A DNA stretch of 64,000 nt, taken from assembly GCF_018861905.1 (NCBI RefSeq), contig NZ_JAHLDU010000001.1, positions 62,001 through 126,000 of the forward strand, given 5' to 3'. This DNA is from Clostridium sp. DSM 17811. Its GTDB lineage: Bacteria > Bacillota > Clostridia > Clostridiales > Clostridiaceae. Positions 4,558 through 63,913 of the stretch are shown here, piece by piece; positions within the stretch are counted from its first letter, which is position 1; the number at the start of each line of letters is the position of its first letter. A program made the position numbers and the translations under genes. Under the pieces are notes generated by a model, which was not told where the DNA came from, did no database searches, and worked only from the letters and a program-made list of their open reading frames with translations.

Positions 4558-4620
4558 TATAATAAAATCTTCAATAAAAATAATTCATACTAAAATTATT
4601 ATTACTTTATTTATCAAAAC

Positions 4621-4690
4621 ACCCATAGTCAAGTCTTTTAAGGTTACTTGGTAGAAACGCTTAGACCATATTTCTAAGCTTATATGAGTT
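4621..4690 (-). promoter_or_regulatory. Guanine (purine) riboswitch aptamer
   Basis: On the minus strand the segment has the complete purine aptamer: P1 arms ACTCATA and TATGGGT, the ATATGG element of J2/3, the conserved GTTTCTACC and the P3 stem. The discriminator just before the 3' P1 strand is C (GACTATGGGT), which specifies guanine/hypoxanthine rather than adenine. Together with the terminator 64 nt downstream it should switch xpt and the transporter off when guanine is plentiful. Confidence 0.93.
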
Positions 4691-4784
4691 TGCGAATATA
4701 ATTTTTTTTTATCATTTCATTGTTCGTGTTTATACTTGTTATTACAATATTACAACATTTATTTTATTAAATCAATATCTATTT

Positions 4785-15411: not shown

Positions 15412-15683
15412 CTTTATTCCCCATTTCTTTTAGTCTTTTTATGGAAAATTATATGACTTATTACTTCATTATAAAGTCATAAATTTTTCATCCATAACCA
15501 TTCTATATAATAAATTGCTTGAAGTATATACTTTTTAACATTATAATCATTTATAATAGTAACATATAAAATTTTTATGTTTATTATTACTATTCCCAAT
15601 ATAACATGAGTATGAGTTTATTCATGTGCAATATTTGTAATTTTACACATTTATACATCATTAGAATCGGAGGTATTAATACA

Positions 15684-16766
15684 ATGAAAAAACTAAAAGT
15701 CGGATTATTAGGTGGAACTGGATTTGTTGGTCAACGTCTTGTTACACTACTTGAAAATCACCCTTATTTTGAAATAGCTGTTATTGCTGCTAGTGAGAAC
15801 TCTGTGGGTAAAACTTATTTTGACGCAGTAAATAAAAGGTGGAAATTGGATGTTCCAATGCCTGAAAACGTCAAGAATATAGTAATAAAAAACATAAACG
15901 AAGTAGATTTAATAAGCAGTGAGGTAGATTTCGTCTTTTGCGCTGTTAATATGCCAGCAAATGAAATAAGAGCAATTGAGGAAAGTTATGCCAAAGCTGA
16001 AACTCCTGTAATTTCAAATAACTCTGCACATCGAAGTACTCCAGATGTTCCAATGGTTATTCCAGAAATAAATGCAGACCATTTCAAATTAATCGATGTA
16101 CAACGGAGGAGACTGGGAACTAAGAGAGGTTTTATTGCTGTAAAACCAAACTGCTCAATCCAAAGTTATGTCCCTGCTATAAGTGCTCTTCTAGAATACA
16201 AACCTACAAAAATATTAGTTTGCACATATCAAGCTATATCTGGATCAGGTAAAATTTTCTCAGACTGGCCAGAAATTATTGATAATGTTATCCCATATAT
16301 AGGTGGAGAAGAAGAAAAGAGTGAACAGGAACCTCTAAAGATTTGGGGTCATATAGAAAATGATAAAGTAGTTAATGCAAAGGCACCTATAATTTCAACT
16401 CAATGCATACGGGTTCCTGTGGCTGATGGTCACTTAGCTGCTGTCTTTGTTTCCTTTGAAAAGAAACCATCAAAAGAAACTATTTTAGAAAAATGGGCAA
16501 CTTACAAAGGAAAACCTCAAGATTTGAAGCTTCCAAATGCTCCTGAAAAGTTCTTAACATACTTTGAGGAAAATGATAGACCTCAAACGCGCCTTGATAG
16601 GAATATTGAAAAAGGTATGGGAATATCACTTGGTAGACTACGAGAAGACAAAATATTTGATTATAAATTTGTTTGTTTATCCCACAATACTCTACGTGGT
16701 GCAGCTGGTGGTGCAGTGTTATCTGCTGAGCTTCTAATGAATGAAGGTTACCTAACTTCTAAATAA
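15684..16766 (+). CDS. asd: Aspartate-semialdehyde dehydrogenase (archaeal/fungal-like type)
   Basis: 360 residues. It reduces beta-aspartyl phosphate to aspartate semialdehyde for lysine/diaminopimelate, threonine and methionine synthesis. The Rossmann loop GLLGGTGFVGQRL (about residues 6-18) and catalytic Cys in VKPNCSIQSY (about 155) are clear. The length and the PNCS context match the longer ASADH subgroup found in archaea, fungi and some clostridia. CGGAGG lies 10 nt upstream of the ATG at 15684; an in-frame start 78 nt earlier lacks a ribosome site. Copy A of the large palindromic repeat starts 12 nt after the stop. Confidence 0.93.
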   Translation: MKKLKVGLLGGTGFVGQRLVTLLENHPYFEIAVIAASENSVGKTYFDAVNKRWKLDVPMPENVKNIVIKNINEVDLISSEVDFVFCAVNMPANEIRAIEESYAKAETPVISNNSAHRSTPDVPMVIPEINADHFKLIDVQRRRLGTKRGFIAVKPNCSIQSYVPAISALLEYKPTKILVCTYQAISGSGKIFSDWPEIIDNVIPYIGGEEEKSEQEPLKIWGHIENDKVVNAKAPIISTQCIRVPVADGHLAAVFVSFEKKPSKETILEKWATYKGKPQDLKLPNAPEKFLTYFEENDRPQTRLDRNIEKGMGISLGRLREDKIFDYKFVCLSHNTLRGAAGGAVLSAELLMNEGYLTSK

Positions 16767-16778
16767 AAAGTGTAATCC

Positions 16779-17016
16779 AATGAACTTCCTCTTACGCGAA
16801 TTGAAATAAAAGTTTGAAACATGAAATTCCTTTAAGAAATTCTAATCTTTTGAAAGTAAAAATTCTCTATCGCTCACATTCGGCTTGCAGCCGGTTCGCT
16901 AGCCTGGCCTTCTGCCAGGCTCACGTGGATTTTTACTTTCAAAAGAAGAATTTCTAAATGGGATTTCAATTGTTTCTGCTCTTCTTATTTCAATCCACTT
17001 CCAGAGGAAGTTCATT
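16779..17016 (+). repeat. Large palindromic interspersed element, copy A
   Basis: 238-bp near-palindrome with perfect 14-bp terminal arms (AATGAACTTCCTCT / AGAGGAAGTTCATT). A long outer stem (CTTTTGAAAGTAAAAAT with its complement) encloses two small hairpins: CGGCT-TGC-AGCCG and AGCCTGGC-CTTCT-GCCAGGCT (16901-16921). It starts 12 nt after asd. It shares sequence with copies B and C (AGTTTGAAACATGAAA, GCTCACATTCGGCTT, AAGAATTTCTAAATG, TTCTGCTCTTCTTATTT). No coding potential beyond chance; the short reading frame across it reflects the palindrome. Confidence 0.9.
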
Positions 17017-17191
17017 TTATTATGTGTTGCTACATTTAGAAAAAGGGGCTCTTCCGTTCCTTTGGAACGGAAATCGTATAGTAACAAAACATGGTAGTAA
17101 AACATAAATTTTTAAAAACAATAGTTGGGAAAAGCTAAGGACAATCGGCTCAGACTCGATAGGATATCCGATGGTATGTATTTTAGAAATA

Positions 17192-17233
17192 AAAGATAAG
17201 CGGAAGGGTATGTTAAACCTTCTGCTTATCTTT
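17192..17233. terminator. Strong hairpin, probably bidirectional terminator
   Basis: Perfect 16-bp stem AAAGATAAGCGGAAGG / CCTTCTGCTTATCTTT with a 10-nt loop, followed on the plus strand by ATTATTTT. It lies between the asd-side element and the minus-strand HD gene region. Confidence 0.75.
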
Positions 17234-17328
17234 ATTATTTTACAACCTATAAAATGATAGCTAAATTTTAAGTTTCCTTTAATTCAAATTATGGGTATCG
17301 CCAACATTTCTACTCTTCTATTCATAGC

Positions 17329-17529
17329 CTATATTTCTTCTACTCGATACCACAATTCACAAAATTCTTCGCCTTTATTATTCATACAATACATTTCGAA
17401 GTTGCCACCATCTAAAATTTTATATTTTGCAGTTTGAATCCATTCTGAAAAAATACGTTTTTTCAACGTGGCTAAATCTAATTTACCTGGTTCATAGGTA
17501 TTTGTAGGGAAAATAGCTCCATTTAGCAA
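17329..17529 (-). pseudogene. C-terminal fragment of a GyrI-like effector-binding domain
   Basis: 66-codon frame beginning with TTG directly after the HD gene stop. The sequence SEWIQTAKYKILDGGNFEMY ... CELWYRVEEI resembles only the C-terminal third of GyrI/AraC-type small-molecule-binding domains (EWxxxSGYExxDGPxxExY ... xEIWIPV). The N-terminal part of the domain and any ribosome site are missing, so this is probably a remnant. It could alternatively be a short expressed peptide, but nothing supports that. Confidence 0.5.
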
Positions 17530-17533
17530 GTTT

Positions 17534-18031
17534 TTAATCTTTTATTATGTACATTTCAAAGCAAAGTTTTCGTCCTGATTCAGTTTTAAAAATTTTATTA
17601 TAAGTATTTTGTATAGTCTCTTTATCATTTTGATTTTCATATAAATTCACAAGGAAATCTGCCTCTACTAGAATCTGATAATCAATCCCATCAATATTTG
17701 AATAAGTATGGTGGTGAGCTACCAAATAACTTACCCTCTCAATTACCTCCTTCTTAAATTCAAGTCTGTTTAACAATTTTTCTGCGTAAATAGGTCCTTC
17801 CTTTTCCTGAAGCTTACCATTACATTTTCCATATTTTTTCATAGAAACTTTAATCCCTATGTCATGAACAATAGCGGCCACCTCTAAAATTTCCATGTTA
17901 TAAGATGAAATTTTCTCCATGCTACCAATCAGCTTTGCAAACGCATGTACCTTTATAAAATGTTGGATTAATTCTGGCGCGCCTTCATCAAATTTAAACA
18001 TTTCTAAAATTAAACAGTTAATTTTATTCAT
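17534..18031 (-). CDS. HD-domain phosphohydrolase family protein
   Basis: 165 residues. An HD fold with a metal-binding His (FIKVHAFAKLIGS, about 24-36), the HD doublet in VAAIVHDIGIKVSM (about 50-63), and HHHTYSN followed by the distal Asp region (ILVEADFLVNLYEN). Such proteins hydrolyse phosphomonoesters of small metabolites or nucleotides; the substrate is unknown. GGGAGGATTAAT precedes the ATG. Neighbours (alpha/beta hydrolases) do not specify a pathway. Confidence 0.8.
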   Translation of the reverse strand: MNKINCLILEMFKFDEGAPELIQHFIKVHAFAKLIGSMEKISSYNMEILEVAAIVHDIGIKVSMKKYGKCNGKLQEKEGPIYAEKLLNRLEFKKEVIERVSYLVAHHHTYSNIDGIDYQILVEADFLVNLYENQNDKETIQNTYNKIFKTESGRKLCFEMYIIKD

Positions 18032-18117
18032 ATTAATCCTCCCTAAAATTATAAAACCTTATTTCTTGATTTTGATTTATATAACCAAAGCAACTTAACT
18101 GTAATTATTGATTATGC

Positions 18118-18909
18118 TCATAATCCACAAATGAAATTATTTATTTCTTTGTTAACATCATCATAATTATCCGCATTAGAAAAATGTGACGCACCTTTGA
18201 TTATATGAAGCGGATAGCCCTCTTTTTTCGACCACGCTTCACAATACTGCTTTACTTTTCCTATTTTGTCATATTCACCCACCAAAATTAGAACAGGGAA
18301 ATTATAATGTACTGATTCTTTTCTATCAAAAACTCTACCATAAGCTATGCCCATTTGTTCAACAATATCTGACTTGCTCAAAGGCTTTAGCATTTTAAGC
18401 ATCATATCATAAGCATATTGTGTTTTTGAAACAGATTTTGCAATACTATTACGCAACCTTTTATCAGTAAAACATCTTGCTATGGGTTCAACCTGTTTCA
18501 ACCACCATCTGTCTAATACAGAATAGTAGCACAAGCCTAATGGTGTAGTATCTAAAGCAATAAACGCAGTTACTTTACCTGGATATTGTATTGCAAATTC
18601 TTGACTTGGGTATCCACCCATTGACATGCCAACCAATATTACCTGCTGAATATTCTCACCATCAAGTATTGTTTTCAATTCTATAGCAGTATTTTCATAA
18701 GAAAAATTAGTATAAGGACGAGATTCTCCATGCAAAGGGACATCCCATGTAATAACAGTATATTTATTTGAAAAATAGTCAACCTGTTTATCAAACATCA
18801 TATGATTCGCAGTTAACCCATGTGTGAAAACAATGCATCTTGCATTTTCAATTTTGTTTATCCAATAATGAGTTGTCCCACGCTCCGATTTTACACTTTT
18901 ATGTTCCAT
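18118..18909 (-). CDS. Alpha/beta hydrolase
   Basis: 263 residues. An oxyanion segment FTHGLTANHMMFD (about 29-41), nucleophile elbow GMSMGG (Ser at about 99), an acid in LILVGEYDKIG and the C-terminal His in KGASHFSNADN complete the Ser-Asp-His triad. Cytosolic, with no signal peptide. It is a generic serine hydrolase/esterase-like enzyme; substrate unknown. GTGAGGTAAATTAAAT precedes the ATG. Confidence 0.85.
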   Translation of the reverse strand: MEHKSVKSERGTTHYWINKIENARCIVFTHGLTANHMMFDKQVDYFSNKYTVITWDVPLHGESRPYTNFSYENTAIELKTILDGENIQQVILVGMSMGGYPSQEFAIQYPGKVTAFIALDTTPLGLCYYSVLDRWWLKQVEPIARCFTDKRLRNSIAKSVSKTQYAYDMMLKMLKPLSKSDIVEQMGIAYGRVFDRKESVHYNFPVLILVGEYDKIGKVKQYCEAWSKKEGYPLHIIKGASHFSNADNYDDVNKEINNFICGL

Positions 18910-18995
18910 ATTTAATTTACCTCACTTTAGCAAAATATAAATAATATTTAACTCTCCATATCAATAGGTTTGGATTCATAAACACATATAGATTA

Positions 18996-19754
18996 TTATT
19001 CTTTTATATTATTCGAAAAAAGTTGTTGCAGTAAATCAAGATATTTCTCTGGATAGATTAGACTTATTTCTCCATGTCCACTTTTCTTTATTATCTTCAA
19101 AAAACTGCCATTAATAGTTTCATGAAGTAGCGAAGCAGATTTTTTCATTATTGATAATTCTTTTTCACCAACTAATATTAATACTTTTGCTTTTGTATTA
19201 CACAAAGTTTTCGGCATTGGATAATTCCCATTACTTTTAGTAATATTTATTAATGATTCCTTCGTAATTTTTGAACTTTCTTCATAATAGGTCTCAAACA
19301 AATCATCTGGTACGTTTAGTGTCTTGGCCTGTAGCTTTGCAAACCACCTTTTTTTAGTTAGCCCATAACACATATTATATATTGGTACAGCTAATGCACT
19401 TGCAAGCTTCATTGGATAAACTAAAGCACTTTCTATAACAGCATTATCCGTAATATCTTTTTCTCTAGAAAGTATTTCAACAGTTATTTGAGCACCGATA
19501 GATAGACCACAGATTGCAAAAACTTTTCCATTATAATTGTCTTTTATATATTTAATAACCTGCTCACCCGATTTTTTTATACTTATAAAATTGGTATCAA
19601 ATGCATCGCCTTGTCCATCAATAATAGGTGTTACAATATAATATTTTTTTTGTAAAACCTCAATTTGTGGTTTCCATGACCACCAAGACAATCCACCCCC
19701 ATGAAGAAAAATAATAACAGGCATACTTCTATTTCCAAACTCTTTAAATATCAT
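18996..19754 (-). CDS. Alpha/beta hydrolase
   Basis: 252 residues. HGGGLSWWSW forms the oxyanion loop, GLSIGA carries the nucleophile (about 84), LILVGEKE the acid and KKSGHGEIS the His. The start at 19754 is chosen because GGAGGGGGAG lies 6 nt upstream; an in-frame start at 19784 would place this ribosome site inside the gene. It is distinct in sequence from the hydrolase just upstream, so not a recent duplicate. Substrate unknown. Confidence 0.83.
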   Translation of the reverse strand: MIFKEFGNRSMPVIIFLHGGGLSWWSWKPQIEVLQKKYYIVTPIIDGQGDAFDTNFISIKKSGEQVIKYIKDNYNGKVFAICGLSIGAQITVEILSREKDITDNAVIESALVYPMKLASALAVPIYNMCYGLTKKRWFAKLQAKTLNVPDDLFETYYEESSKITKESLINITKSNGNYPMPKTLCNTKAKVLILVGEKELSIMKKSASLLHETINGSFLKIIKKSGHGEISLIYPEKYLDLLQQLFSNNIKE

Positions 19755-19906
19755 GTGCTCTCCCCCTCCATAGATTACCCCCATTTTATTGAGCTACTCT
19801 ACCTCTGCTGAGATATAATAGGTTTAGAATTGATAATATCCTACCATTTTAAGAACGTTAATAATATTATTTATCAACTTCTATTAAGTTTATAAATTCA
19901 ATAACA

Positions 19907-20359
19907 TTACTTTATATATTCAGTAACTAAATCAGTAAAAAGAATGCCTTCTAAATGATCTATTTCATGGCAAAAACATTTTGCTAAATCTCCTGTACCA
20001 GTCAATATAATCTCATCACCATTTTCATTCAATGCTTGCACAGTAACCTTTGCAGGTCTTTTTAACTTTCCAAATGTATTTGGAATGCTTAAACATCCCT
20101 CTGTAACTTCTTGAATACCTTCATGCTTAATTATCCTTGGATTAACTAGTTTTATAAGTCCTTGCCCCATATCTATTACAACTAATCGTTTTAATATTCC
20201 TACTTGTGGGCCTGCTAATCCTCCACCATTTTCTGTATTATACATAGTTTCTGCCATATCACTTAGTATTTGTCTTATTTTATCATCTACCAATTCAACT
20301 ATTCTGCTCTTTTTTCTTAATATTTCATCATCGAAAAGTCTAATTTGTCTTAATGCCAT
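19907..20359 (-). CDS. def: Peptide deformylase
   Basis: 150 residues. It removes the formyl group from nascent N-terminal methionine. The three metal/catalytic motifs are present: GGGLAGPQVG (motif 1, with Gly for one Ala of the usual GxGxAAPQ), EGCLS (motif 2, metal Cys) and CHEIDHLEG (motif 3, HExxH). Its start lies inside the end of the upstream XRE gene (20-bp overlap), so the two are coupled. No fmt or priA neighbours, so this may be one of several deformylases in the genome. Confidence 0.93.
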   Translation of the reverse strand: MALRQIRLFDDEILRKKSRIVELVDDKIRQILSDMAETMYNTENGGGLAGPQVGILKRLVVIDMGQGLIKLVNPRIIKHEGIQEVTEGCLSIPNTFGKLKRPAKVTVQALNENGDEIILTGTGDLAKCFCHEIDHLEGILFTDLVTEYIK

Positions 20360-20597
20360 TTAAAATACACCCCCTACTTTGTTGTGCTCTTGATTTTCTT
20401 ACACTTTCTTTAAAGAGAAAAATTTCCTCTATAGGACTGTGGAAGGTCTTACAAATATCATAAGCTAACCATATAGACGGCTCAAATTTTTCTGTTTCAA
20501 TGGAATTAATTGCTTGTCTTGATACACCTATAAGTTCTCCTAATTGTTCTTGTGTTAATCCAAGTGATTCACGAAATTCTTTTACTCTATTTTTCAT
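20340..20597 (-). CDS. XRE-family helix-turn-helix regulator
   Basis: 85 residues. The N-terminal HTH (VKEFRESLGLTQEQLGELIGVSRQAINSIE split, residues 4-33) is followed by SPIEEIFLF, as in small Firmicute XRE regulators. The start at 20597 is preferred over one 27 nt upstream since GGAGG sits 8 nt before it. A 16-bp perfect palindrome directly upstream is a likely autoregulatory operator. The 3' end overlaps def. Confidence 0.88.
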   Translation of the reverse strand: MKNRVKEFRESLGLTQEQLGELIGVSRQAINSIETEKFEPSIWLAYDICKTFHSPIEEIFLFKESVRKSRAQQSRGCILNGIKTN

Positions 20598-20611
20598 TAA
20601 TTGACGCCTCC

Positions 20612-20647
20612 ATAATGTTAACATTATATTGTAAAATATAACATTAT
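20612..20647 (-). promoter_or_regulatory. Candidate operator of the XRE regulator
   Basis: Perfect palindrome ATAATGTTAACATTAT (20612-20627) just upstream of the ribosome site, plus a second half-site ATAACATTAT (20638-20647). The location between promoter and start codon suits autorepression. Function is inferred from position only. Confidence 0.5.
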
Positions 20648-20781
20648 TTTATTTCCATATCAAGTCAACCTTACATAATATAGAATAGTTAAACTTGTTA
20701 TCTATAACAAACTTCGAGTTTATCTACAATGATATATGCATCGCTCTTTTATGCTTTAGATAACCTTATACAAATAAAAAT

Positions 20782-20813
20782 AACATGCTAATTAATTTTA
20801 TAATTAGCACGTT
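20782..20813 (-). terminator. Intrinsic terminator downstream of the small membrane protein
   Basis: Minus-strand stem AACGTGCTAATTA / TAATTAGCATGTT (one G-U pair) followed by ATTTTTATTTG. Confidence 0.7.
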
Positions 20814-20858
20814 ATTGCCTTCTGCTTCTCTTTTATATTTTACAACATTTATGAATTT

Positions 20859-21149
20859 TTATACTCCCCAAATGAGAGTTCCTACATACATAAGAATCAT
20901 TGGCCAAAATAGTAATATAACATTAATTGCTATTAAAAATACCCCTAATTTTGTTTTATGTTTAATTAATCCAATTATTGAAAGGATTCCACCAATAATT
21001 GCAAATATAGATGGTCCGAAATATAATAATAGTCCTTCTAAACGTGTAGAATGAGTCGGTATTAGTTGAATAAACTCATTTACTAATACCAAAAGGGATA
21101 CTATTAAAATGCCTAATGAACATTTTGTAAATATACTTTCTTTTTTCAC
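20859..21149 (-). CDS. Small integral membrane protein, unknown function
   Basis: 96 residues with three hydrophobic helices (about 12-28, 42-62, 68-90) linked by short polar loops. AAGGAGGTATGGGTCT precedes the GTG start; the only nearby ATG runs straight into a stop. Not recognised. It sits alone between the deformylase/XRE pair and repeat copy B, and has its own terminator. Confidence 0.65.
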   Translation of the reverse strand: MKKESIFTKCSLGILIVSLLVLVNEFIQLIPTHSTRLEGLLLYFGPSIFAIIGGILSIIGLIKHKTKLGVFLIAINVILLFWPMILMYVGTLIWGV

Positions 21150-21258
21150 AGACCCATACCTCCTTAAACTATAAATAGTTTCACTTTTTCACAATTTAGT
21201 TTATTATTTTTTTATGTATTATCACTCTTAGGTTATTATTACGATGCTACATACTAAT

Positions 21259-21491
21259 ATGACTTTCTCGGTCAGTGACTCAAAATAAGAAGAGCAGAAA
21301 CAATTGAAATTCTATTTAAAATTCTTCTCTTGCAAATATAAAATTCTCGTGAGACTGCTACAAGCAGTCTAGCGAACCGGCTGAAAGCCGAATGTGAGCG
21401 AAAGAGAATTTTCTATTTGCAAGAGATTAGAATTTCTCAATGGAATTTCATGTTTCAAACTCTTATTTGGATTCACAAAAACGAAAGTCAT
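21259..21491 (-). repeat. Large palindromic interspersed element, copy B
   Basis: 233 bp, inverted relative to copies A and C. Terminal arms ATGACTTTC / GAAAGTCAT; the outer stem contains CTCTTGCAAATA with its complement. Inner hairpins (minus strand) are CGGCT-TTC-AGCCG and AGACTGCT-TGT-AGCAGTCT (21352-21370). Read on the minus strand it begins 9 nt after the cbiT stop, the same sense relation to its upstream gene as A to asd and C to pflA. Confidence 0.9.
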
Positions 21492-21500
21492 AGGAATACC

Positions 21501-22064
21501 CTATATTTTTTTCCCAGTTACCACAAATATAGGATTATTAGCCATTAACATATAACTCTTTCCTTTTGTTTTACTTACTTGAATTTGTACACATTCTACT
21601 TCATATTTTAACCCTTTTAAAGCTTCCATAGCCTTGTATACATTATTTATAGTTATAAAGTTTAAAACAATATTTTTGCCTTTTTTAAGTTTATCTCCAT
21701 ACTTTTCAATAATGTCAGCTATATTTCCACCACTTCCGCCTACAAATATAGCGTCAAATTCTCCTATTATGTTTGACTCTATCTCCATAGCCTGGTCATT
21801 TATTATTTCTAAGTTACTTGTCTTAAACTTTTCTTTATTTTGTTTTAAAACCTCTAACGCCTCATTATCTTTTTCTATAGCTATAACTTTACCATTTTTA
21901 CAGATCTGCGCTATCTGAATACTTACAGATCCTGTTCCAGCGCCAATATCTATAACTCTATAATTATCTTCAAGTTCTAGCTTTACTACACTTAATATTC
22001 TTACTTCTTCCTTTGTCATTGGGCAATTGCCCCGTATAAATTCATCGTCTTTAATAAACCTCAT
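21501..22064 (-). CDS. cbiT: CbiT-like cobalt-precorrin-6B C15-methyltransferase (decarboxylating)
   Basis: 187 residues. MRFIKDDEFIRGNCPMTKEEVR (split) is the typical CbiT N-terminus. The SAM-binding motif is VIDIGAGTGSVSIQIAQ (about 37-53), with the acidic VIAIEKDNEAL after it and FDAIFVGGSGG (about 108-118) in the family position. It methylates C15 and decarboxylates the C12 side chain in anaerobic B12 synthesis. It stands apart from the cob/cbi genes at 30-37 kb, with no partner CbiE beside it. AGGAGGTCCAAAAAT precedes the ATG. Confidence 0.82.
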   Translation of the reverse strand: MRFIKDDEFIRGNCPMTKEEVRILSVVKLELEDNYRVIDIGAGTGSVSIQIAQICKNGKVIAIEKDNEALEVLKQNKEKFKTSNLEIINDQAMEIESNIIGEFDAIFVGGSGGNIADIIEKYGDKLKKGKNIVLNFITINNVYKAMEALKGLKYEVECVQIQVSKTKGKSYMLMANNPIFVVTGKKI

Positions 22065-33386: not shown

Positions 33387-33459
33387 ATATGCAATTTTTT
33401 ATTGCACTAACTTAAAACCTACAAGTTCTTTCCCGCCGAAAGCTTAATATTGCTAATTT

Positions 33460-33651
33460 AGGCAGGTCTCCTGGCTCTTGATAATCACTCCCCTATTACT
33501 TACCTTTTTAATACACTAGGCAATTATAAAGTTTGCTGTCAATTACAGTAGCGGGGGCTGCTGTGGACTTACACCACATTCCCTTTTCACCCTATCAATC
33601 ATCTACTAGTGTAGCTCATCTACTAAAGTAGTTAATCAATAAAAGGCACCT
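33460..33651 (-). promoter_or_regulatory. Cobalamin riboswitch upstream of cbiP operon
   Basis: On the minus strand the conserved elements occur in order: AGGTGCC at the 5' end, GGGAATGTGGTGTAAGTCC, CCCCCGCTACTGTAA, and the 3' B12 box GAGCCAGGAGACCTGCC (33461-33477). Spacing and order match the AdoCbl aptamer. With the terminator downstream it should repress cbiP-cbiB and the following hem genes when B12 is plentiful. Confidence 0.95.
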
Positions 33652-33828
33652 AAAAAATCTATTTAATTTTTACTAATATTTCCAACAGAATAGTCACTTT
33701 GATTCTGAAATTTATATATTTCTACAAAATAAGTTTATAACATTAGCTTAGTTATGTCAATAAATATGATTGTAAACCTTTAACTTTAAAAATCCCATTA
33801 TTAATCAACAATGTAGACCATTCATTTT

Positions 33829-36726: not shown

Positions 36727-36819
36727 AAACGATTTAAAATTATGTTTAACCATATAAATCAGCAAACAAATTTCTATTACAAAGCCCTCCCTATCACTCG
36801 TAGAGTTTATGGTGCAAAA

Positions 36820-36950
36820 CATAGGCAGATATTCTGACTCAAGAATCATTATTTAAGTACGCCTTCCCCGTTTCCGAGTGACATATTGTACTTAAATTCA
36901 TCTATTACAGCTACGAGATAGTTCAGGATTTTAACCTGATTCCCTTTTAA
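36820..36950 (-). promoter_or_regulatory. Cobalamin riboswitch upstream of cbiMNQO
   Basis: Minus strand: AAAAGGGAATCAGG, then TAAAATCCTGAACTATCTCG, TAGCTGTAAT, and the 3' box GAGTCAGAATATCTGCCTAT (36821-36840). The order matches cobalamin aptamers; the core variant (ACTATCTCGTAGCTGTAA instead of GCAGCCCCCGCTACTGTAA) differs from the cbiP riboswitch and resembles a subtype often seen before cbiM in clostridia. Confidence 0.85.
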
Positions 36951-37074
36951 TTAATCAATTTTAATTAAACCTATATTTTATTATTTAATTTTAATAACAA
37001 TTTAATATGAATACTTACAATACAATAATATCATTATTAATACAAGAAATCAACTACGTAAATTGTCCACATTA

Positions 37075-62625: not shown

Positions 62626-63351
62626 ATGGTAAAAGGTAAAATTCATTCTATAGAAACTATGGGACTAGTTGATGGTCCTGGAATAAGAGTTGTAGTTTTC
62701 TTTCAAGGTTGTAAATTGAGATGTGCCTACTGCCATAATCCCGACACTTGGCAGTTGAGTGGTGGTACAGAAATGACGCCTGATGAAATTGTTAAAAAAA
62801 TAGTTCGTTTCAAACCATACTTTAACAGATCTTGCGGCGGGGTTACTTTCTCTGGTGGCGATCCACTGCTTCAAAGCGAATTTCTACTAGAGTGTTTAAA
62901 ATTATGTAAGATAAATGGCATTCATACAGCTCTCGATACTGCTGGTTTTGGTGATGGTAATTACGACGAAATATTAAAGTACACAGATTTAGTACTTTTA
63001 GATATAAAACAAACAACAGGTAAAGGTTATGTTGCACTAACTGGAAAAGATGCTACAGATGTTAATATATTTTTAGAATCTCTTCGAAAATCAAAATCAA
63101 GAGTTTGGGTAAGACACGTTGTTGTTCCTGGTATTACCGATTCAGAGGAACATATAACAAAACTTGCTAAAATTATTAATGAAGAAGTACCTAATTTAGA
63201 TAAAGTAGAACTTCTTTCATATCATGTTTTAGGAGTTAGTAAATACGAAGAGTTATCTATACCTTATAAACTTAAAGGGGTAGATGCAATGGATAAAGAT
63301 AAAACTAAAAAACTCCAAATATTAATTGATAGTTTGCTTAATATCAAATAA
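62626..63351 (+). CDS. pflA: Pyruvate formate-lyase activating enzyme
   Basis: 241 residues. Radical SAM enzyme with the [4Fe-4S] motif in GCKLRCAYCHNPDTW (CxxxCxxC, about 29-43), preceded by ETMGLVDGPGIRVVVFFQG (split), the PFL-AE signature, and GGVTFSGGDPLLQ (about 75-87) for SAM binding. It generates the glycyl radical on PflB. TAAGGAGGAATTTAT precedes the ATG. Copy C of the palindromic element begins 12 nt after its stop. Confidence 0.96.
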   Translation: MVKGKIHSIETMGLVDGPGIRVVVFFQGCKLRCAYCHNPDTWQLSGGTEMTPDEIVKKIVRFKPYFNRSCGGVTFSGGDPLLQSEFLLECLKLCKINGIHTALDTAGFGDGNYDEILKYTDLVLLDIKQTTGKGYVALTGKDATDVNIFLESLRKSKSRVWVRHVVVPGITDSEEHITKLAKIINEEVPNLDKVELLSYHVLGVSKYEELSIPYKLKGVDAMDKDKTKKLQILIDSLLNIK

Positions 63352-63363
63352 TAGGGTGCATCC

Positions 63364-63609
63364 ATATGAAACTTCTCTCCTGCGTGACCTGAAATAAGAG
63401 TTTGAAACATGAAAATTCATTAAGGTATTCTAATCTTTTGCTCATATGAAATTCTCTAACAGCTCACATTCGGCTTACAGCCAGTTCGCTTAGACTTCCT
63501 TTCAGGAAGTCTTACGAGAATTTTATATTTGCAAAAGAAGAATTTCTAAATGAATTTTCAATTGTTTCTGCTCTTCTTATTTCCGGTCACTTCCGGTGAA
63601 AGTTCATAT
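63364..63609 (+). repeat. Large palindromic interspersed element, copy C
   Basis: 246 bp. Imperfect terminal arms ATATGAAACTT / AAGTTCATAT (one bulge), outer stem CTTTTGCTCATATGAAATTCT with AGAATTTTATATTTGCAAAAG (split; mismatched in places), inner hairpins CGGCT-TAC-AGCC and AGACTTCCT-TTC-AGGAAGTCT (63492-63512). Same orientation and distance from the upstream stop codon as copies A and B. Confidence 0.9.
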
Positions 63610-63771
63610 TGTTATATATTTGAACTGAAATATTTTTAAAATCAACCTCTTACAAAAGAAGAATTACTAAATCAACTTTCAATGTTTATGCTCTTCTTGT
63701 TACAAGCCACTTCTGGAGAAAATTCATACTATATCACATTTACATTAAAATATTTCTACGATCAACCTCTT
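63532..63771 (+). repeat. 120-bp tandem duplication of the right arm of copy C
   Basis: The right arm of copy C is followed by a diverged second unit at exactly 120-bp offset: TCAATTGTTTCTGCTCTTCTT against TCAATGTTTATGCTCTTCTT (split), GGTCACTTCCGGTGAA against AGCCACTTCTGGAGAA. ATCAACCTCTTACAAAAGAA is identical at 63641 and 63761. Confidence 0.8.
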
Positions 63772-63781
63772 ACAAAAGAAG

Positions 63782-63829
63782 AAAGGCATGTCCCAAGATG
63801 ATTTTATAATCATTTTTGGATATGCCTTT
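63782..63829 (+). terminator. Intrinsic terminator downstream of the repeats
   Basis: Imperfect stem AAAGGCATGTCCCAA ... TTGGATATGCCTTTT with inner ATGAT/ATCAT pairing, followed by CTTTTCTT-like sequence. Likely ends the pflBA transcript. Confidence 0.65.
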
Positions 63830-63913
63830 TCTTCGGTTCAACTATAACCTTTGTTATATTGTATGCTATTTGTGCTTAAATTTATATTTATCAACTATGG
63901 TTTCACTAGTAAA

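Follow-up and report, generated by a model that had tools for sequence, protein, structure and literature searches.

Integron attC sites are imperfect palindromes that follow a stop codon, run in gene sense and vary at the apex. The elements described here share these three features, but they sit at core chromosomal genes on both strands and have longer arms. REP elements and other MITEs (NEMIS, ERIC, RUP) are described, in passages on them, as palindromic, extragenic and often near genes (PMC3733652); REPs measure 20-40 bp, whereas the present elements are about 240 bp long, with a branched apex and a strict sense orientation. We take as nearest precedent bcr1 of the Bacillus cereus group, which passages on it describe as MITE-like and often found in transcribed UTRs and operon spacers, with a mobility tied to TTTAT repeats (PMC3446304, PMC6542083). 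The likeness is that of MITE-like repeats tied to transcribed UTRs; bcr1 differs in sequence and host, and those passages report no fixed sense place for it behind stop codons. In B. cereus, bcr3 alone, and not bcr1, correlated with mRNA decay according to a passage of the same work (PMC3446304). TwoAYGGAY (RF01731, Weinberg et al. 2010), an orphan family of Rfam, has been classed, in passages on it, as probably RNA and not cis-regulatory, and proposed as a CsrA-binding RNA because its loops match the CsrA motif (PMC4333381); these passages mention neither mobile palindromes nor gene 3' ends. In the titles and abstract openings of the literature on TwoAYGGAY, RF01731 and repeats, we recognised no description of elements like those reported here: cold-loving Clostridium genomes hold dozens of long hairpin-forming elements just past stop codons.

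The window, a stretch of 64,000 nucleotides from Clostridium sp. DSM 17811, holds three full copies, A, B and C. Copy A (16779..17016, plus strand) begins 12 nt past the stop codon of asd (15606..16766, plus), copy B (21259..21491, minus) 9 nt past that of cbiT (21501..22064, minus) and copy C (63364..63609, plus) 12 nt past that of pflA (62626..63351, plus), each in the sense of its gene (3/3), as the initial annotation had it. Its names for asd and pflA are upheld by NCBIfam models that score over their cut-offs (TIGR00978, 358.6 bits against 301.2; TIGR02493, 304.5 against 231.75), and the name cbiT in part, as the CbiT domain model (TIGR02469) reaches 129.2 bits against 78.3 while full-length models stay below theirs. 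A covariance model, R1, built from an alignment of 20 source-genome copies with A, B and C among them, matches the three at 183-186 bits (A, 16816-16988, 185.9; B, 21285-21456, 184.8; C, 63404-63580, 183.3), against 59-71 bits on their own reverse strands and 24 bits at the next place in the window.

Each copy folds as a single long hairpin with an energy far below that of shuffled sequences (z = -11.9 for A, -10.7 for B and -10.0 for C; 0 of 200 shuffles as good). The architecture is a long stem with conserved internal loops and a two-hairpin apex, and A is a near-complete palindrome. Its apical hairpins are P2 (16881..16893, plus; CGGC/GCCG), seen in sequence and fold, and P3 (16901..16921, plus), which contains the covarying inner stem AGCCTGGC/GCCAGGCT indicated by sequence and pair counts. 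The inner stems had been said to differ between copies and yet to pair, and they do, reading AGACTGCT/AGCAGTCT in B and AGACTTCCT/AGGAAGTCT in C. The proposed size of about 240 bp holds for the full copies; sharp ends at 240 bp do not, as the arms approach the stop codon in many copies. Minimum-energy folding was uninformative about the outer boundary, because chance pairs lengthen the predicted stem. No ORF of 100 amino acids or of 80 codons lies within A, B or C, and their palindromic arms amount to terminal inverted repeats without coding capacity, the ends expected of a MITE. As noted before, no target-site duplication is recognisable at any of the three.

Behind C lies a second, partial 3' arm (approximately 63649..63740, plus), flanked on both sides by the short repeat ATCAACCTCTTACAAAAGAAGAA; within 63649-63840 a hairpin with a T-rich tail follows this partial tandem arm (by eye). 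Copies A and B face each other within 16767-21500, separated by 4.2 kb and four ordinary genes (HD domain, two alpha/beta hydrolases, peptide deformylase; 17534..20359, minus). These genes were considered as mobile cargo and rejected, their domains being ordinary and without mobile functions. In genomes G001 and G009, asd is followed by one terminator and then by a putative cbiT on the other strand (by eye). The window also carries two cobalamin riboswitches and one purine riboswitch over gathering score (36807-36989, 33444-33668 and 4606-4707, all minus).

The 5.2-Mb source genome contains at least 33 copies, A, B and C included. The R1 search returned 62 rows, which became 33 when 29 antisense rows of the same places were removed, the weakest scoring 42.8 bits; the count is a lower bound because 150 of 7887 first-look candidates were scored. 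Matches to R1 occur in all 17 genomes of the genus and, under stricter filters, in 26 of 206 genomes of the family, those 17 included. Outside the genus they are strong in g31 (genomes G173 and G174), present in g9 (G093, G094, G096) and few and weaker in g22 and g24. A pattern search for the core found 39 stretches in named genomes, the hosts being Clostridium tagluense, C. bowmanii, C. frigoris, C. algoriphilum, C. lacusfryxellense, Clostridium sp. CF012 and three metagenome bins. Copy A had no match in plasmid and phage collections at E 1e-5, and the core pattern none in viral contigs.

Seventeen source-genome copies have a median identity of 76% and are more diverged than the first-subfamily copies of G174 discussed below. 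Ten of the 30 listed source-genome copies (L050-L059) measure 212-270 nt, where the remaining ones measure 169-180. The long copies that were read carry an extra apex module (CCTCTGGGT..GTAACAATT..AATTGTTAC), usually before P2 and in L050 inside P3, which looks like a secondary insertion. On contig G003:C1, 14 of the 15 sense matches of at least 78 bits lie within 3.87-4.45 Mb of 4.76 Mb, and on G004:C1 12 of the 16 of at least 72 bits lie within 4.22-4.95 Mb of 5.47 Mb; as both contigs open with dnaA-dnaN-recF (by eye), the cluster falls on one side of the origin. The copies of G005 are more scattered.

The proposed tie of a multi-copy family to gene 3' ends and gene sense was borne out. In the source genome 29 of 30 copies have a same-sense upstream gene, with the gene end at most 33 nt away in 28 of 30, and in the genus the counts are 49 and 47 of 51. 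These samples, 30 of the 33 source-genome copies and 51 genus copies, are the best-scoring ones with orthologous sites included, and distances run from an element edge set 37 nt before the R1 start. Uniform placement within the same spacers in random orientation would give at most about 3.6 of 30. Where the spacer lies between convergent genes, 15 of 16 source-genome copies stand closer to the gene whose sense they share, L057 being the exception. Random placement of the copies, named beforehand as the result that would tell against the idea, is thus not what this genus presents. In L046, L142, L123 and others the reading frame ends within the outer arm, so that the junction is not one fixed base in the genus.

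In g9 the upstream gene is in sense in 32 of the 36 copies for which it is known (38 examined; 19/21 of 23, then 13/15), at distances looser than in the genus. A second palindromic subfamily, in G173, follows the sense rule in 8 of 10 known cases (11 examined). The first subfamily of g31 (G173/G174) wanders with no gene rule (9/25), and class-wide TwoAYGGAY matches show none either (17/27 in the R1 sense, three short loci dropped).

Judged by sequence, the elements belong to the superfamily of TwoAYGGAY. At permissive settings, two of 11 source-genome loci tested pass the RF01731 threshold of 43 bits (L024, 51.1; L017, 49.1), as do the relatives L154 (69.7 bits), L184 and L183, while L180, L186 and L185 fall short of it. 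Copies A, B and C (L001, L003, L006) had no RF01731 match at E 10, and the window none at gathering score. Across the class RF01731 matched 35 of 391 genomes, 26 of them over the cut-off. The likeness lies in the long stem, the branched two-hairpin apex, the GTCCTG-type loops of many copies and the junction bases CTA..TACG in the R1 sense; the difference is that the Rfam match runs opposite to the 3'-UTR sense and that A, B and C have other loops and go unmatched. All eight RF01731 matches run opposite to the R1 sense, the one that upstream genes share in this genus. Among sister copies GTCCTG-type loops persist, reading AGGAC on the Rfam strand.

The suggestion made for TwoAYGGAY, that of a CsrA-sequestering or trans-acting small RNA, would draw on this homology to RF01731 and on copies such as L010, L011, L022 and L024. 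Their gene-sense loops are TTCCTG or CGTCCTG and read CAGGA on the opposite strand, so the GGA motif, where present, is on the other strand. Nearly all g1 copies and most g9 copies have their AYGGAY strand antisense to the upstream gene, and a search of A, B and C for AYGGAY-type hairpin loops found no GGA in their loops on either strand. We consider such a role extremely improbable for the present elements. G138 has three TwoAYGGAY-like copies. One of them, L185 (RF01731 30 bits, under the threshold), lies inside a 16S-23S spacer and has its R1 sense against that of the rRNA; L191 and L195 share its rRNA-like flank (by eye).

Evidence for movement comes from the first subfamily of g31. Its copies end in TGATTA..CCACAA inverted repeats and have exact 5-6-bp target duplications at 32 of 39 sites, against about 5% in mismatched flank pairs; the 39 are the unique two-ended sites among 52 loci, of which ten had no recognisable end and three repeated a site. 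The subfamily looks young. Ten copies in G174 are 95-100% identical, and many copies of the subfamily are internal-deletion derivatives. The presence in another genus of near-identical relatives with inverted repeats and target duplications indicates that the family is or was mobile, and they lend support to the initial idea of a mobile hairpin. For A, B and C, with no recognised target duplication and no transposase identified, mobility is inferred from these relatives. TIR-like ends number 323 in G174 and 4 in a control; no parent transposon was seen in the first 170 bases inside the ends in G174, at 30 TIR loci among the 100 places listed, many of the 30 being internal-deletion derivatives.

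These observations could describe plain MITEs that insert anywhere AT-rich, are tolerated only behind genes and have no function. Wandering copies with target duplications and without a gene rule exist in the same superfamily, copies decay through internal deletion, and 1 of 27 class-wide TwoAYGGAY matches lies between divergent genes. Tolerance alone, however, accounts neither for the fixed orientation (29/30, 49/51) nor for the proximity of the sense gene in convergent spacers, and sites persist as their occupant changes. We regard survivorship of this kind as unlikely.

The second subfamily is probably kin to the R1 family. Its R1 scores are weak (about 60-67 bits in G173) and no higher than those of most true copies on the reverse strand (about 52-79 bits), so the kinship rests mainly on shared loop bases, namely TTCTAA bulges and CTA..TAACG at the apex (by eye). 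The G173 copies of this type are 75.6-98.2% identical (median 88). In G174, in 19 of 20 regions chosen for showing paired matches, two copies of the subfamily face each other over a span of 0.8-1.6 kb. One end of the pair lies beside a same-sense gene in 15 of the 19, and in 13 of these 15 the terminal motif directly abuts the stop codon (11 TAA, 1 TAG, 1 TGA). The genes at the pair ends are mostly unrelated (two weak pairwise matches). At the convergent gene pairs L391, L403 and L405 a two-element unit of about 1 kb spans, as read, exactly from stop codon to stop codon. At the far ends of the pairs 9 of 15 continue with TTA (counted by eye), which means that the TAA may belong to the element end and that the element may supply the stop codon.

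Targeted integration, in which the element or a transposase recognises gene 3' ends by a terminator or the stop-codon context and inserts in one direction, would explain the abutting motifs of G174 and the binding of the G173 type-2 copies to 3' ends, and the asd site carries different kinds of element across species. Set against it are the type-1 copies, which have clear target duplications and use AT-rich sites with no gene rule, the lack of an identified transposase, and the far ends that continue with TTA; the element-free asd sites with plain terminators are too distant (82-84% identical) for the junction to be read. The claim that the hairpin targets gene 3' ends is therefore compatible with the data and falls short of proof, given the wandering subfamily and the want of a close empty site. 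We hold targeted integration to be possible but doubtful. A further reading, for which the abutting motifs and the stop-to-stop units would speak, is that the element integrates at stop codons as such, with the end of the reading frame and no DNA motif setting the junction; it seems to us decidedly improbable. A copy might, for example, join an mRNA trimmed to the terminating ribosome and then be copied back into the chromosome; the TTA at 9 of 15 far ends lowers our estimate of it.

The asd site illustrates how occupants change. The element occupies it in G000, G003, G006 and G007; G008 has a copy without its apex, G005 a different palindrome, and a plain terminator hairpin stands soon past the stop in G001, G004, G009, G012 and G016 and further on in G014 (G002, G010, G011 and G013, cut or mis-framed, were left out). 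Element-free asd sites occur only in the species whose asd DNA is 82-84% identical. The long palindrome of G005 (L215) has a T-run tail and perhaps belongs to the second subfamily. Three candidate empty sites elsewhere, in G003/G006, proved to hold remnants or apex-deleted copies (one alignment read by eye), so that the apex is dispensable at least there, and no clean empty site was found in close relatives. The same element site is kept in several species. Among the 51 elements with an ortholog in the set of 78 best-scoring copies, 16 have that ortholog as their nearest relative, 30 are closest to an element that occupies a different site in a different genome, and 5 to one within their own genome. 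Sites persist, then, and the occupant changes.

The plain terminator hairpins at empty asd sites, together with an A-run before and a T-run after the stem in L050, L100 and L101 (by eye), might suggest that the elements are giant intrinsic terminators. A TTTTT within 12 nt past the outermost predicted pair was found in 0 of 81 folded copies (30 source-genome, 51 genus), a weak count since the fold over-extends the stem. We think this identity very unlikely.

Covariation in the family is real. Of the 53 consensus pairs in the 20-copy alignment, 25 show one or more both-sided changes, and pairing holds across 84 aligned sequences; uncompensated stems in a larger alignment had been named beforehand as a result that would tell against the idea. 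The suggestion that the covariation shows selection on a folded RNA is not supported as it was put. Wobble in the arms is as rare as A-C, with 54 G-U against 59 A-C cells in the 84-sequence alignment once the three pairs of the apex and a single wobble-rich pair (columns 6/232), which hold 163 G-U cells between them, are left out. A cobalamin riboswitch control from the same genus, in contrast, has 103 G-U against 9 A-C in sense (14.9% against 1.3%) and 7.1% against 2.2% when reversed. Four element samples, refolded, gave G-U/A-C counts of 42/18, 30/16, 42/21 and 16/13 in sense (1.1-2.7% against 0.9-1.3%) and 29/19, 29/13, 29/17 and 28/16 reversed (1.7-1.9% against 0.8-1.2%). In these samples G-U is slightly above A-C on both strands, which counts against pairing at the DNA level; as the folding itself prefers G-U to A-C and the control sequences have diverged further (65% identity, against about 82% in the element samples), only the near-symmetry of the strands and the low wobble count are to be read from the comparison. 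A strand call from wobble asymmetry was abandoned, as G-U equals A-C in the arms and no strand is indicated. With G-U as rare as A-C there, covariation is weak evidence for selection on RNA.

Comparison of orthologous sites with an upstream DNA identity of 95% or more gave 32 both-sided against 44 one-sided pair changes (12 comparisons, two of them repeats); at ten such sites the identity of the elements themselves is 75-98%, with a median of about 83%. Both-sided changes nearly as common as single ones fit correction between arms at the DNA level or exchange between copies. Template switching between arms has been described for RNA hairpins (PMC8794818). If it acted on these arms, or if copies exchanged with others, the double changes and the nearest relatives that are not orthologs would both be explained. 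Pairing may thus be kept at the DNA level.

The reading we prefer, to which we give about even credence, is that A, B and C are old, non-coding and nearly fully palindromic mobile elements of MITE type, members of the TwoAYGGAY superfamily that now stand as 3'-UTR modules and would act at the mRNA end. A terminator would hardly fit into the short gap that separates the stop codon from the element, so a transcript passing the stop would enter the element. Where an mRNA ends in a long duplex, one would expect slower 3'-to-5' decay or cleavage by RNase III. The mRNA would end in the hairpin, or in a product that an RNase III-type enzyme cuts from its long duplex, with 3'-to-5' decay of the upstream mRNA slowed by the hairpin. 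Copies not read in sense at a gene end would have been lost or never made, and pairing would be maintained at the DNA level, largely through template switching between arms and exchange among copies. The fixed sense suggests either that the branched apex plays a part on the mRNA strand or that insertion is directional. Against a 3'-UTR module speak the bcr1 precedent, with no correlation with mRNA decay, the wandering subfamily with no gene rule and the class-wide TwoAYGGAY matches, which show none either.

New here are the link to TwoAYGGAY and the finding that the strand of that family runs opposite to that of the genes, together with mobile relatives that bear target duplications, the strict position past the stop codon in this genus and the DNA-like covariation. 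The annotated strand of TwoAYGGAY and the CsrA idea are now in doubt. A palindromic mobile element can pass covariation tests without clear selection at the RNA level, which calls for caution in the discovery of RNAs by comparative genomics. Stop-codon targeting, if true, would be an unusual choice of site for a mobile element. An orphan Rfam family gains a concrete biology, that of a mobile palindrome bound, in this genus, to the 3' ends of genes and to the sense of their transcription.
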